Below are positions 1,856-7,674 of a stretch of 7,674 nucleotides of DNA, piece by piece (positions within the stretch are counted from its first letter, which is position 1; each line of letters starts with the position of its first letter). Both the position numbers and the translations under genes were made by a program. Below the pieces are notes generated by a model. It was not told the DNA's origin, made no database searches, and saw only the letters and a program-made list of their open reading frames with translations. This DNA comes from a bacterium (GTDB lineage Bacteria > Patescibacteriota > Gracilibacteria > JAUYGZ01 > DAOVYC01), in contig DAOVYC010000027.1 in the NCBI GenBank assembly GCA_030635805.1, positions 1-7,674 of the forward strand, in the 5' to 3' direction.

Positions 1856-3010
1856 CTAGAAATACCAGAGAGTCAGAATCCAGCCGGCGGTGAGAGGAAT
1901 TATGATATTGTCGTCGATTTCCAGATTTCCGATTTTTAGTCGTAAAGATTCTACAAATATAGCTCCGGCGGAGGCGAAGAAAGCGGGCCAGAAGCTGACA
2001 AAGAAACTGGCAACGGCAAGAGAAAAGAAAAAGCCAACTAGAGAGCCTTCTATAGTTTTTTTGGGATTTAGAGGGTTTTCTATTTCTCCGAAATATCGGC
2101 CAACGATATTTGTGACCGAATCACCAATGGCAAGAATGGCAATGGCGGTAAGAGCGATTTGCTGAGGAAAAAGAATGAGGGACAAAAAAATTCCGAGAAT
2201 GAGAAAGAAAGAACCTTTCCCGGGAAAATTGAGACGATCCTTTTTTCTTTCAAAGAAAGAGAGAAGAGGAGTAATCACCGGAATTTTATCCGGATATTTT
2301 TTGTAGGCGATTAAAAGGAAAAGACCGCCGAAGAAGATACAGCCAATATCCCGAATGTTAATCAGATTGGTTTGAATGCCGATTATGGCTGCAGAACCGA
2401 TGATAATATGAGCTACTTGTCTGCGGAGTTCGAAATGAATATTCATTATTTTTTTTGAGAATTTTCTTTTTTCTTCCAGCCAAACGAATATTTCTCCGCT
2501 GGCTAATCCAACGACTATTCCTCCAAGAACATCACTCAAAAAGTGGGCACCGACGTAAATTCGCGAAAAGGCGATTAGAAAAGCGATTGCGCCCAGGACG
2601 GGAACTAATTTTTTGTAAGTTAAGAGAAGAATGGGAATAACGGAAAACATCAGGGCGGTATGCATACTGGGAAAGCCGGGAGAAGTTTCCTGGGTGAGCA
2701 TAATAATTTCCGGTCTTCCGGAAAGAAAAAATATTTTTAAAGTATGCGTTAAAAGTAGGGCAAGAGCAATGCTTCCCCAGAGAGGAAAAATCTTGGTTCT
2801 GTGTTTTTCTGATGCTAAAAAGGGGATAAATAAAAGAACAAATAAAATCCAGATTACTTCCAGTTGAGTTATTATAACCATAATGACATTCATCTTTTCT
2901 GTTCGAAAACCGGTTATATACGAGGTGATTGAATTGTTAAAATGAAGACTGATGATAGTGAGAATCACCACCAGAACTAGATGTCGATATCTGATGAGAG
3001 TGGGTTTCAT
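1856..3010 (-). CDS. PAP2-type lipid phosphatase fused to dolichol/phytol-kinase-like domain
   Basis: This 384-residue multi-pass membrane protein has two recognisable halves. Residues about 1-180 carry the PAP2 acid phosphatase motifs: K92...R99-P100 (KIFFLSGRP), P114-S-M-H117 (PSMHT; usually PSGH) and S149-R150...H156...D160 (SRIYVGAHFLSD). Such proteins dephosphorylate lipid phosphates or diphosphates, for example undecaprenyl diphosphate. Residues about 190-384 resemble CTP-dependent polyprenol kinases (dolichol kinase SEC59, phytol kinase VTE5, DGK1): RRQVAH with H201, GDSVTNIVGRYFG (296-308), NPKKTIEGS (315-323), E354, and DDN (366-368) before IPL. The two chemistries oppose each other on lipid alcohols. 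Sitting 144 bases after a penicillin-binding protein gene, it may handle the peptidoglycan carrier lipid. The substrate is inferred. The stop is TAG and no Shine-Dalgarno precedes the ATG. Confidence 0.85.
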   Translation of the reverse strand: MKPTLIRYRHLVLVVILTIISLHFNNSITSYITGFRTEKMNVIMVIITQLEVIWILFVLLFIPFLASEKHRTKIFPLWGSIALALLLTHTLKIFFLSGRPEIIMLTQETSPGFPSMHTALMFSVIPILLLTYKKLVPVLGAIAFLIAFSRIYVGAHFLSDVLGGIVVGLASGEIFVWLEEKRKFSKKIMNIHFELRRQVAHIIIGSAAIIGIQTNLINIRDIGCIFFGGLFLLIAYKKYPDKIPVITPLLSFFERKKDRLNFPGKGSFFLILGIFLSLILFPQQIALTAIAILAIGDSVTNIVGRYFGEIENPLNPKKTIEGSLVGFFFSLAVASFFVSFWPAFFASAGAIFVESLRLKIGNLEIDDNIIIPLTAGWILTLWYF

Positions 3011-5515: not shown

Positions 5516-7674
5516 ATGACTGATTTTCACTCCTATGTATCGTTTGATCTGGAAACCACAGGAATAGACCCTTTACAGGATAAAATAATAGAGGTGGGAG
5601 CGGTGAAGGTTATTGGTGGGGAGGTAAAGGAAACATACAGTACCTTCCTGACCCTTGATAAGCCTCTTGATCCGATCGTTTCCATAATTACCGGTATTCA
5701 TGATGAGGATCTGATTGGCTCACCATCCTTTTTGCAAATTCAGGAAGATATTAAAAGTTTTATAGGTGATTTTCCGATATTAGGGCATAACGTTATTTTT
5801 GATCTGAGTTTTTTACAAACCTATGGTTTGGAGTTTAAAAATCCGATTTGGGATACGAGTGTTCTTTCTGCAATTCTTTTCCCTGAAACCAGGTCACATA
5901 GTTTGGAGGTTTTAAGTCAGAAGTTTAAAATAGAGCACGAGGCACATCGTGCCCTTGGTGATGCCAAAGCTACTTCCGATCTCTGGCTCAGTCTTCTTAA
6001 AGAGGTTTCTATTCTTGAGATAGATAAAAGGAAAGTGCTGGATGAATTTTGTTTGAAAAGCGAATGGGGGATGAAAAATATTTGGCAGGGTGTTGAGGCT
6101 GATAAGTCTTATTCTTCCTTATTAACCTCATTCACCGGGGGTATCGAACTGTCTGATGAGATACAGATTTCTATTGACGACAAAGCTCTTTGCCTGGACT
6201 GTTTCGGGGTTGATAGGAAGCAGGTAACTGTTTCCGCGCTGAATAATATTTTAAAAAATCATAAAAAATGTCTTTTAATTGGGGCTTATTATTTTTTCCA
6301 AGATTCAGTTTTAAGTCAATTTGAGGGAAGTCCTTATCTGGACAAACCTGAATCATATTTGGATTGGGGGAAGTTTAATAATTTTATTAAGAAGGATTTA
6401 TTTACCGATGGGGAGATTGTGTTTATCTGTAAGGTTTTGCGTAGTTTTAATGAAGGAGATCTTGTACATCGGGGAAAACTTTCGTTGATGCCACAGGATT
6501 TTGATTATTGGGATCAGGTTTCTTGTACGAGAGAGAGTGGTTTATACGTGAAAATTTTGAAATCGGTTCTAGAATCAAATCTTTTGGGAATGTCTCAATA
6601 TGGTTTTTTTCAACACATACAACACGATCCAAATTTTTTGAATGATTATGATTATGTTGTTTTTCTTGATGGTCAGCTATTGGAACAAAATCTTATTAAT
6701 TCTTTTGGGGATTCTCTTGATTCCAGAAAAGCAGAGGGTGAGAAAAGAGAGTTTCTGAAAAGAATGCAGTCGTGGATATCTGCTTCTGTTCCGGATTCTC
6801 CTTACCCACAGTCGATAATGCTTAATGAAACACTAAAGAATGATACTTACGAACAGCTTAAAAAGGATGTTAGCAATGTTGGATCTTCTGTTCTTAAAGC
6901 CTTTTTTGAAGATAGTGAGGATTATGTATCTTGGGTAAAAATTGATCCAAAAGGATTTTTTGTTGTTCATGTTGACCCCATTAAAGTGGAGACAATTTTC
7001 AGGGAGACAGTTCTGGATAAAATTTCGCATTTGTTTGTAAATGATAGAGGATTTTGTACCAGGTGTATTGGATTTGAAGGGCAACATAGAAATATTGTAT
7101 CGAATGAGTTTTGTTCGAACTTTTCCGTTATTCTTCCGGCGATTGAAGAAATAGTTGGAACGAAAAAAGAAGGCGATACTTCTGCTCAAATTGAGTACTT
7201 TTCCAATACCCTTCTTTCCACCAAGGGGCGTTGCGCTTTTGTCTTTAGTTCACGACGGGTTCTGCAGAAATTTTTTGTGGCACTTCAGCCCTGGTTGGTG
7301 AAAAATAATATTCCTTACGTTGTGGAGGGAGTAACGGGTGGTAGGGGTAAAATGCTGGAAGTGTATGAAAAGAATTTTAAAGCGGAGAGAGTAGTATTTT
7401 TTTGCACACATAGATTTTTGCCGTTGTTTCAGCGAGAAGATTTACAATTTCATAATCTCTTTTTTCAATCTCTACCATTTGATCCATTTGGAGACCCGGT
7501 AATTCAGGCTCGAAATAATAGTTTTAAAAATGGATTTATGGAATATTTTTTACCTAAAGCTCTTCAGAATTTTGGAGTACTTTTTGAGAAGATGGCCTTG
7601 GATGATAAAGAAAAAAAAGTGTTTTTGATGGATAGGAGATTGCATGAGAAATCTTATGCGGAAGAGTTTCTGAA
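5516..7674 (+). CDS. DnaQ-type DEDDh exonuclease fused to a degenerate DinG-like helicase domain (3' end cut)
   Basis: At least 719 residues; no stop before the window edge. Residues about 6-165 are a complete 3'-5' exonuclease domain with D11 and E13 (FDLETTG), D96 (GHNVIFDLSFL), H144 and D149 (HRALGDA), as in DnaQ and the N-terminus of Firmicutes-type DinG. The rest follows DinG order: LLGMSQYGFFQHI at the usual NHALL position, YVVFLDGQLLEQ at DEAH, KGRCAFVFSSRRVL at motif IV, QSLPFDPFGDPVIQAR at the conserved LPF segment, and LMDRRLHEKSYAEEFL near the end. Walker A is absent and DEAH, TSATL, FWEGVD and GRLIR are all replaced. No iron-sulphur cysteine set is recognisable. The frame is open throughout, so this is not a simple pseudogene. 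A nuclease with a structural or DNA-binding pseudo-helicase is inferred. The ATG is the only start after an in-frame TAG; no Shine-Dalgarno is present. Confidence 0.85.
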   Translation, partial: MTDFHSYVSFDLETTGIDPLQDKIIEVGAVKVIGGEVKETYSTFLTLDKPLDPIVSIITGIHDEDLIGSPSFLQIQEDIKSFIGDFPILGHNVIFDLSFLQTYGLEFKNPIWDTSVLSAILFPETRSHSLEVLSQKFKIEHEAHRALGDAKATSDLWLSLLKEVSILEIDKRKVLDEFCLKSEWGMKNIWQGVEADKSYSSLLTSFTGGIELSDEIQISIDDKALCLDCFGVDRKQVTVSALNNILKNHKKCLLIGAYYFFQDSVLSQFEGSPYLDKPESYLDWGKFNNFIKKDLFTDGEIVFICKVLRSFNEGDLVHRGKLSLMPQDFDYWDQVSCTRESGLYVKILKSVLESNLLGMSQYGFFQHIQHDPNFLNDYDYVVFLDGQLLEQNLINSFGDSLDSRKAEGEKREFLKRMQSWISASVPDSPYPQSIMLNETLKNDTYEQLKKDVSNVGSSVLKAFFEDSEDYVSWVKIDPKGFFVVHVDPIKVETIFRETVLDKISHLFVNDRGFCTRCIGFEGQHRNIVSNEFCSNFSVILPAIEEIVGTKKEGDTSAQIEYFSNTLLSTKGRCAFVFSSRRVLQKFFVALQPWLVKNNIPYVVEGVTGGRGKMLEVYEKNFKAERVVFFCTHRFLPLFQREDLQFHNLFFQSLPFDPFGDPVIQARNNSFKNGFMEYFLPKALQNFGVLFEKMALDDKEKKVFLMDRRLHEKSYAEEFL

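Follow-up and report, generated by a model that had tools for sequence, protein, structure and literature searches.

ExoDinG proteins join an N-terminal 3'-5' exonuclease to a DinG/XPD scaffold whose motor domains carry a Walker A motif, a DEAH box and motif VI. DinG of Staphylococcus aureus (SaDinG; PDB 8zef, 9ii8) is reported as an active 5'-3' helicase, after an earlier report that it had no such activity (PMC12345164). The ordered part of a 22-nt oligo-dT in its crystal is 11 nt long: motor domain 2 (MD2) holds seven of these nucleotides and the exonuclease four; alanine mutants of the MD2 contacts K801, F804, F823, R858 and Y864 lost helicase activity and bound single-stranded DNA (ssDNA) more weakly (PMC12345164; we verified the residue numbering on the PDB chain). 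The ATPase of ExoDinGs is dispensable for their nuclease: the E465A mutant of Listeria DinG is reported to keep prominent exonuclease activity (PMC12774634) and the ATPase of Bacillus subtilis DinG to neither stimulate nor inhibit degradation (PMC12525004). The jobs reported for ExoDinGs are removal of unprocessed rRNA in Listeria (PMC12774634) and removal of R-loops in B. subtilis (PMC12525004). Here, we describe an ExoDinG-like protein encoded on contig DAOVYC010000027.1 of the gracilibacterial assembly GCA_030635805.1 (phylum Patescibacteriota). The whole contig, 7,674 nt long, is referred to as the window. The protein keeps its nuclease residues and has lost its motor motifs.

The window protein belongs to the DEDDh 3'-5' exonucleases by both catalytic residues and fold. 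Pfam RNase_T covers residues 8–154 (E = 4.2e-26). The five exonuclease residues listed as intact in the original prediction, which was made from the sequence alone, are all present (D11, E13, D96, H144, and D149), and each is conserved in 50/50 motor-dead rows, window included. The nuclease is probably active. The window protein shares its exonuclease domain with the PolC/DnaQ exonucleases (PDB 2p1j, 1j53; 35% identity to 2p1j), which, unlike the window protein, have no helicase half.

The motor was assessed at sites placed by alignment with motor-intact relatives. None of the window sites for motifs I, II, III, V, and VI matches its motif consensus. The absence of a Walker A motif was confirmed for the entire window protein: GK[ST] does not occur, and GK pairs are found only at residues 285, 320, and 611. 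DE pairs are found only at 63, 176, and 214, each upstream of the motif I site, and a P-loop and DEAH pair elsewhere in the protein was sought and not found. Two of the four sites that had been paired by eye, those of motif III (VNDRG) and motif V (FLPLFQ), were placed correctly; motif II had been set one residue off (DGQL at 385–388 for LDGQ at 384–387) and motif VI four residues off (GVLFE at 687–691 for EKMAL at 691–695), with the same conclusion. That every motor motif is lost is accurate for the window but not for some of its motor-dead relatives, in which traces remain, for example DE[AG]E at the motif II site.

The scaffold is recognizable despite these losses. The landmark strings quoted for the helicase half are all present, and residues 208–719 match DinG/XPD structures by predicted fold, as had been proposed. 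The DinG/XPD fold is also predicted to be retained in two distant motor-dead members. Pfam Helicase_C_2 matches residues 565–718 (32.3 bits; cut-off 25.3), and our profile A1 matched 8zef with 434.8 bits over 3–875. NCBIfam dinG_rel (TIGR01407, exonuclease/helicase, a hypothetical equivalog) scored 145.8 bits, below its curated cut-off of 547.7. The window protein shares with SaDinG the N-terminal DEDDh exonuclease, the order of motor domain 1 (MD1), Arch, and MD2, the predicted fold over the full length, and four of the five tested MD2 ssDNA-contact residues; it differs in that SaDinG has Walker A (GSGKS), DEAH, and GRLIR, and is longer (897 residues versus a little over 719), the Arch region of the window protein being shorter. 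The spacing between motifs I and II is 149 residues, compared with 172 in a Bacillus DinG, and that between motifs II and III is 121, compared with 218. The four cysteines of an iron–sulphur type MD1 insert were not found: between motifs I and II there are only C252, C305, and C337, widely spaced. Some known ExoDinGs are also reported to be without them (PMC11981726).

Loss of the motor is shared by most of the homologues, a point the original prediction had put up for checking: among the class relatives whose frame is long, 39 of 50 have lost it, as have 13 of 15 relatives from the rest of the phylum. The class search covered 60 genomes including the window's own; matches came from 55, in many cases to the exonuclease alone, and frames that were short or covered only the exonuclease (including G005:C1, G023, G040, and G041) were left out of the class set. 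Locus L164, which encodes another kind of protein that also has an exonuclease domain, and the incomplete L165 and L169 were not counted; L166–L168 were counted though short at the end. The phylum sample covered 96 genomes including the window's own, 27 of them with a match at 1e-40; L190 and L192–L195 (cut or exonuclease-only) were left out, and L180 is cut by a contig end. A search with profile A2 returned only four proteins. A scan of named genomes was limited to the best 80 of 381 loci, mainly from Chloroflexota and Bacillota and none titled as a patescibacterium; 19 of these loci were examined, and Walker A was kept in all 14 that had a usable frame.

Several class relatives have TGA within their reading frames. 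Six proteins (P0021, P0029, P0032, P0036, P0039, and P0043) seem to be without GK[ST] only through an artefact, TGA, which probably encodes glycine there, having been translated as W (WVWKT, WLWKS). Six code-25 loci have intact motors when read under table 25. None of these proteins and loci was counted as dead. Chance [AG]xxxxGK[ST] strings occur in 6/63 motor-dead proteins (L038, L057, L065, P0002, L175, and L191). The P0002 string precedes strand 1 and the L038 string comes some 20 residues after the motif I site, positions that do not suit a P-loop; the other four were judged by position alone. The DE[AG]E remnant is a feature of family f7 (L044, L049, L053, L056, L059, and L069), in which Walker A, V, and VI are gone; it may represent intermediate decay or a retained metal-binding or structural role.

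On a tree of the exonuclease domain, built without the near-duplicates L036, L055, P0003, P0014, and L054, four changes of motor state are needed, of which the starred branches force at least two; the motor-intact family f10 nests with the dead family f6 (96/84). A single motor-dead clade was not rejected by the approximately unbiased (AU) test (p-value 0.169; 0.135 without L166–168). The tree and the AU test together fit either one loss of the motor or several.

By alignment, four of the five MD2 ssDNA contacts are selectively retained in the motor-dead proteins while the ATPase columns vary. Among 50 motor-dead proteins, the F804 column holds F in 47 (with three gaps), the F823 column F, W or Y in 47, the R858 column R in 41, and the Y864 column Y, W or F in 48. 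We ranked the 476 columns of the dead helicase half by conservation over 43 rows (L036, L055, P0003, P0014, L054, and L166–168 were left out). F804 ranked 3, R858 8, F823 12, Y864 15, and K801 58; one column (L227) gave a non-number and was falsely placed first, so that every rank may be one too high. Fifteen ATPase columns, near-invariant among motor-intact proteins, ranked 43–409, with 14 at 118 or lower; the column at 43 is that of the motif II E, where D and E now predominate. The mean rank of the five contacts, K801 included, was matched in none of 200,000 random five-column draws. The 13 motor-dead proteins from outside the class, not part of the ranking, gave the same picture: F (12) or Y (1) at F804, F (13) at F823, R (9) or K (4) at R858, and Y (11) or W (2) at Y864.

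In the relatives, purifying selection acts on the dead half, as the original prediction had supposed. The ratio of nonsynonymous to synonymous substitution rates (dN/dS) ranged from 0.02 to 0.35 across the dead half in three pairs of relatives. For the exonuclease, MD1, Arch, and MD2, respectively, it was 0.020, 0.052, 0.020, and 0.026 in L035/L036; 0.082, 0.192, 0.105, and 0.102 in L046/L054; and 0.118, 0.174, 0.352, and 0.111 in L046/L048. The pair L047/L048 gave 0.14 for the exonuclease and 0.17 for MD2, its other domains being saturated. In the motor-intact control L050/L055, the corresponding values were 0.059, 0.030, 0.053, and 0.029, with MD1 among the lowest. Saturated dS allowed no ratio for L033/L034 (all domains) and for parts of L047/L048 and L050/L063. 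Among the window's own close relatives, the estimate covers only the 29 codons common to the window and a second contig of the same genome, C43 (dN 0.072, dS 1.89).

Identities were compared between domains as well. Within the window's clade, the conservation of MD2 equalled or exceeded that of the exonuclease in 4/6 pairs (window versus P0001: 62 versus 57%). Against P0001 and P0002, identity was 36–40% in MD1 and 53–57% in the exonuclease; the two parts of MD1 in motor-intact pairs of similar exonuclease divergence stood at 37–73%. MD2 was more conserved than the exonuclease in 7/8 motor-intact pairs. The frame stays open at 46–49% identity in P0001–P0003.

The reading that we favor, with a probability of roughly 0.6, is that the half with the predicted DinG/XPD fold and without ATPase motifs is a passive clamp, which keeps a strand on MD2 with the 3' end of that strand offered to the nuclease. 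MD2 would bind single-stranded nucleic acid and pass the 3' end of the held strand to the DEDDh exonuclease, along the path seen in SaDinG (from MD2 to the exonuclease) minus the motor, and no ATP would be used. The natural substrate of a protein that does not unwind would be expected to carry a 3' single-stranded tail or a 3' end that is recessed or frayed, or to be the end of an RNA. Judging from the characterized ExoDinGs, the likeliest cellular job would be removal of R-loops or of unprocessed rRNA. The original prediction had proposed a non-ATPase role such as DNA clamping or substrate guidance, which fits the selective retention of the MD2 contacts.

Several observations weigh against this reading. 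The fifth contact, K801, is S652 in the window, and the MD1 contacts K336 and K338 read, in our alignment, D276 and P278, with K277 in between. G608, P680, K306, E300, and D328 are as well kept as the contacts and have no assigned role; the contact residues themselves may be kept for folding instead of binding. The structural matches have a large root-mean-square deviation, and the domains may be placed differently than in SaDinG. In other dead clades, MD2 was less conserved than the exonuclease in 8/8 pairs (L044/L053: 40 versus 72%; narrowly so in L046/L048: 70 versus 72%), which counts against a universal role. Finally, the motor-dead L166–L168 (code-25 family f11) have lost the C-terminal part of MD2 including the ssDNA-contact residues, and thus a strand clamp cannot be universal.

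We also weighed a role modeled on XPF, in which the dead half would serve mainly for regulation or docking and not for strand feeding, keeping the nuclease covered until the arrival of a partner or of a particular substrate. XPF is described as a nuclease with a superfamily 2 (SF2) helicase-like module that can neither bind nor hydrolyze ATP; the module is reported to be needed for full activity and to bind SLX4 and DNA, and the helical domain to contribute to an auto-inhibited state (PMC7048804). The likeness lies in the coupling of an active nuclease to a scaffold of SF2 type that has no ATP-binding residues; XPF belongs to another SF2 branch and has another nuclease type, and we draw a functional parallel with no claim of a common fusion origin. 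In the window's clade, strings such as FSSRRVLQ and FCTHR are conserved away from known DNA contacts, and the well-kept P680, K306, E300, and D328 are likewise not known contacts. Such a gate has no known partner, however, and of the five known MD2 ssDNA contacts four fall within the top 15 columns of the dead half by conservation. We consider this explanation unlikely.

That the exonuclease alone is selected, with the helicase half a decaying passenger, is improbable. MD1 is clearly relaxed at the identities given above, and its dN/dS is the highest of the domains in two of the three fully scored pairs (Arch in the third); the MD2 deficit in all eight pairs from other dead clades and the partial loss of MD2 in one family point the same way. 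The dN/dS values of the dead half already disfavor such a relic, however, and so do the open frame in P0001–P0003, the retention of specific DNA-contact residues across the phylum, and the predicted retention of the fold in two distant members.

A glycine-rich loop of MD2, GGRGK, is common in the motor-dead proteins and less regular in motor-intact ones. We asked whether it might be a relocated nucleotide site through which nucleotide binding regulates the nuclease. It lies between a strand and a helix with GK at its end, and among motor-dead proteins G608 is kept in 57/63 and position 612 is K or R in 52/63. The following residue is I, L, M or V in 49/63 rows, however, and S or T in just seven, and no acidic Walker B partner is evident. 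The same place holds SGGRNK in the motor-intact L050 and its kin, alongside a normal Walker A, and for this reason a backbone-binding loop, the simpler role, is more likely than a new ATP site on this alignment; we regard the relocated site as very improbable. Least credible is an ATPase that persists through motifs diverged past recognition: the motif II E column still holds D in 24 and E in 14 of 50 motor-dead proteins (D385 in the window), but GK[ST] is missing, both arginine fingers are lost, and the motor-dead set shows variable residues in the columns of Walker A and of motifs III, V, and VI.

Table 1. Coordinates of the ExoDinG-like gene and its features in the window
Feature	Position (nt)	Strand	Remark
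ExoDinG-like coding sequence, 719 codons, ATG start	5516..7672	+	open at contig end
DEDDh 3'-5' exonuclease domain, residues 6–177	5531..6046	+	RNase_T, catalytic residues
Catalytic D11	5546–5548	+	
Catalytic E13	5552–5554	+	
H91, also present	5786–5788	+	
Catalytic D96	5801–5803	+	
Catalytic H144	5945–5947	+	
Catalytic D149	5960–5962	+	
MD1 scaffold, residues 208–400, boundary approximate	6137..6715	+	poorly conserved, no ATP site
Walker A (motif I) site, DCFGVDRKQ, residues 228–236	6197..6223	+	no P-loop
DEAH (motif II) site, LDGQ, residues 384–387	6665..6676	+	
Shortened Arch-like insert, residues 401–500, boundary approximate	6716..7015	+	
MD2 scaffold, residues 501–719	7016..7672	+	conservation about that of the exonuclease among closest homologues
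Motif III site, VNDRG, residues 508–512	7037..7051	+	
Glycine-rich loop GGRGK, residues 608–612, MD2	7337..7351	+	hallmark of motor-dead proteins
Motif V site, FLPLFQ, residues 634–639	7415..7432	+	
F655, equivalent of SaDinG F804	7478..7480	+	ssDNA stacking
F674, equivalent of SaDinG F823	7535..7537	+	ssDNA stacking
Motif VI site, EKMAL, residues 691–695	7586..7600	+	both arginine fingers lost
D706-R707-R708; R708 equivalent of SaDinG R858	7631..7639	+	ssDNA contact
Y714, equivalent of SaDinG Y864	7655..7657	+	ssDNA stacking

The window is an entire contig (C87) of a draft genome (0.83 Mb, 161 contigs, 77.75% complete), and the protein is hence cut by the contig end. The start of contig C43 (G000:C43:1-105, L003) is a diverged copy of the last 29 codons of the gene, with 83% of residues in common and 15/87 nucleotides differing from window positions 7586–7672. 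This copy continues five residues beyond the window end to a stop, so the full protein is probably only a little longer than 719 residues. This second, diverged 3' end within one bin suggests that the draft genome is a mixture of strains. The same genome has a second, DnaQ-like exonuclease match (G000:C70:6536-7027, minus strand), the matched stretch of which contains one TAA.

In the related genomes G001 and G002, the gene is flanked on one side by a penicillin-binding protein gene and on the other by ftsZ-ftsA-ybeY; prsW and miaB lie farther out. The left side of the window matches this order, plus an extra PAP2 gene, and the right side of C43 matches it with ftsA, ybeY (both by Pfam), and ftsZ (by eye). 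YbeY is an rRNA-maturation endonuclease; its proximity is the gene order of the taxonomic order and no evidence of a common function. The ExoDinG frame of L203 in family f8 (7463–9547) overlaps the next gene (9544–10389), whose product has an FtsQ-type POTRA domain, by four bases. This is a second link to division genes, beside the penicillin-binding protein/ftsZ neighborhood in the window's order. The PAP2 gene of the window (1856–3010, minus strand) encodes a 384-residue protein with the phosphatase domain at 77–182; the remainder gave a weak, sub-threshold CTP_transf_1 match (142–349, E = 0.56), and the protein is possibly a fused lipid-carrier phosphatase and kinase-like enzyme.

Two named groups were considered as homes for the window protein and rejected. 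In pExoDinG of the C. vibrioides type, too, one half of the fusion is described as a pseudoenzyme (PMC11981726), but in that case it is the exonuclease that is thought to be dead, next to a live motor; with its nuclease residues intact and motor residues lost, the window protein is the mirror image. CasDinG of type IV CRISPR systems was rejected on the loss of the motor. The PADLOC typeIV_DinG match was weak and partial (39.7 bits), and no cas family was found in the five frames scanned on the 7.7 kb contig, a stretch so short that a CRISPR locus could still lie farther away. The motor-intact ExoDinGs of the class (L050, L055, L061–L063, and the code-25 L157–L162) share the domain order and DEDDh residues, and several have an SGG..K-like loop; they differ in having motor motifs and 874–946 residues (lengths from stop to stop for the code-25 members). 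A 2025 review on DinG-like proteins distinguishes ten subgroups, none of them described as motor-dead in the parts consulted (PMC11981726). No description of a motor-dead ExoDinG was found among the literature matches listed, in which subscription journals are thinly covered. The window protein would be an ATP-free ExoDinG variant, a form that we did not find described.

Beyond the window, it is conceivable, at somewhat less than even odds, that in most Patescibacteria that keep an ExoDinG the XPD-type helicase has become a clamp for single strands that works without ATP, possibly through several independent events, and that the resulting energy-free exonuclease takes over the R-loop or rRNA end-trimming duties of powered ExoDinGs in these cells with minimal genomes. 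What the helicase half contributes to the nuclease of ExoDinGs is unsettled, given the conflicting reports on SaDinG and the Listeria DEAH mutant that keeps its nuclease. A natural family without the ATPase but with the strand-gripping residues separates both roles and makes the question directly testable.
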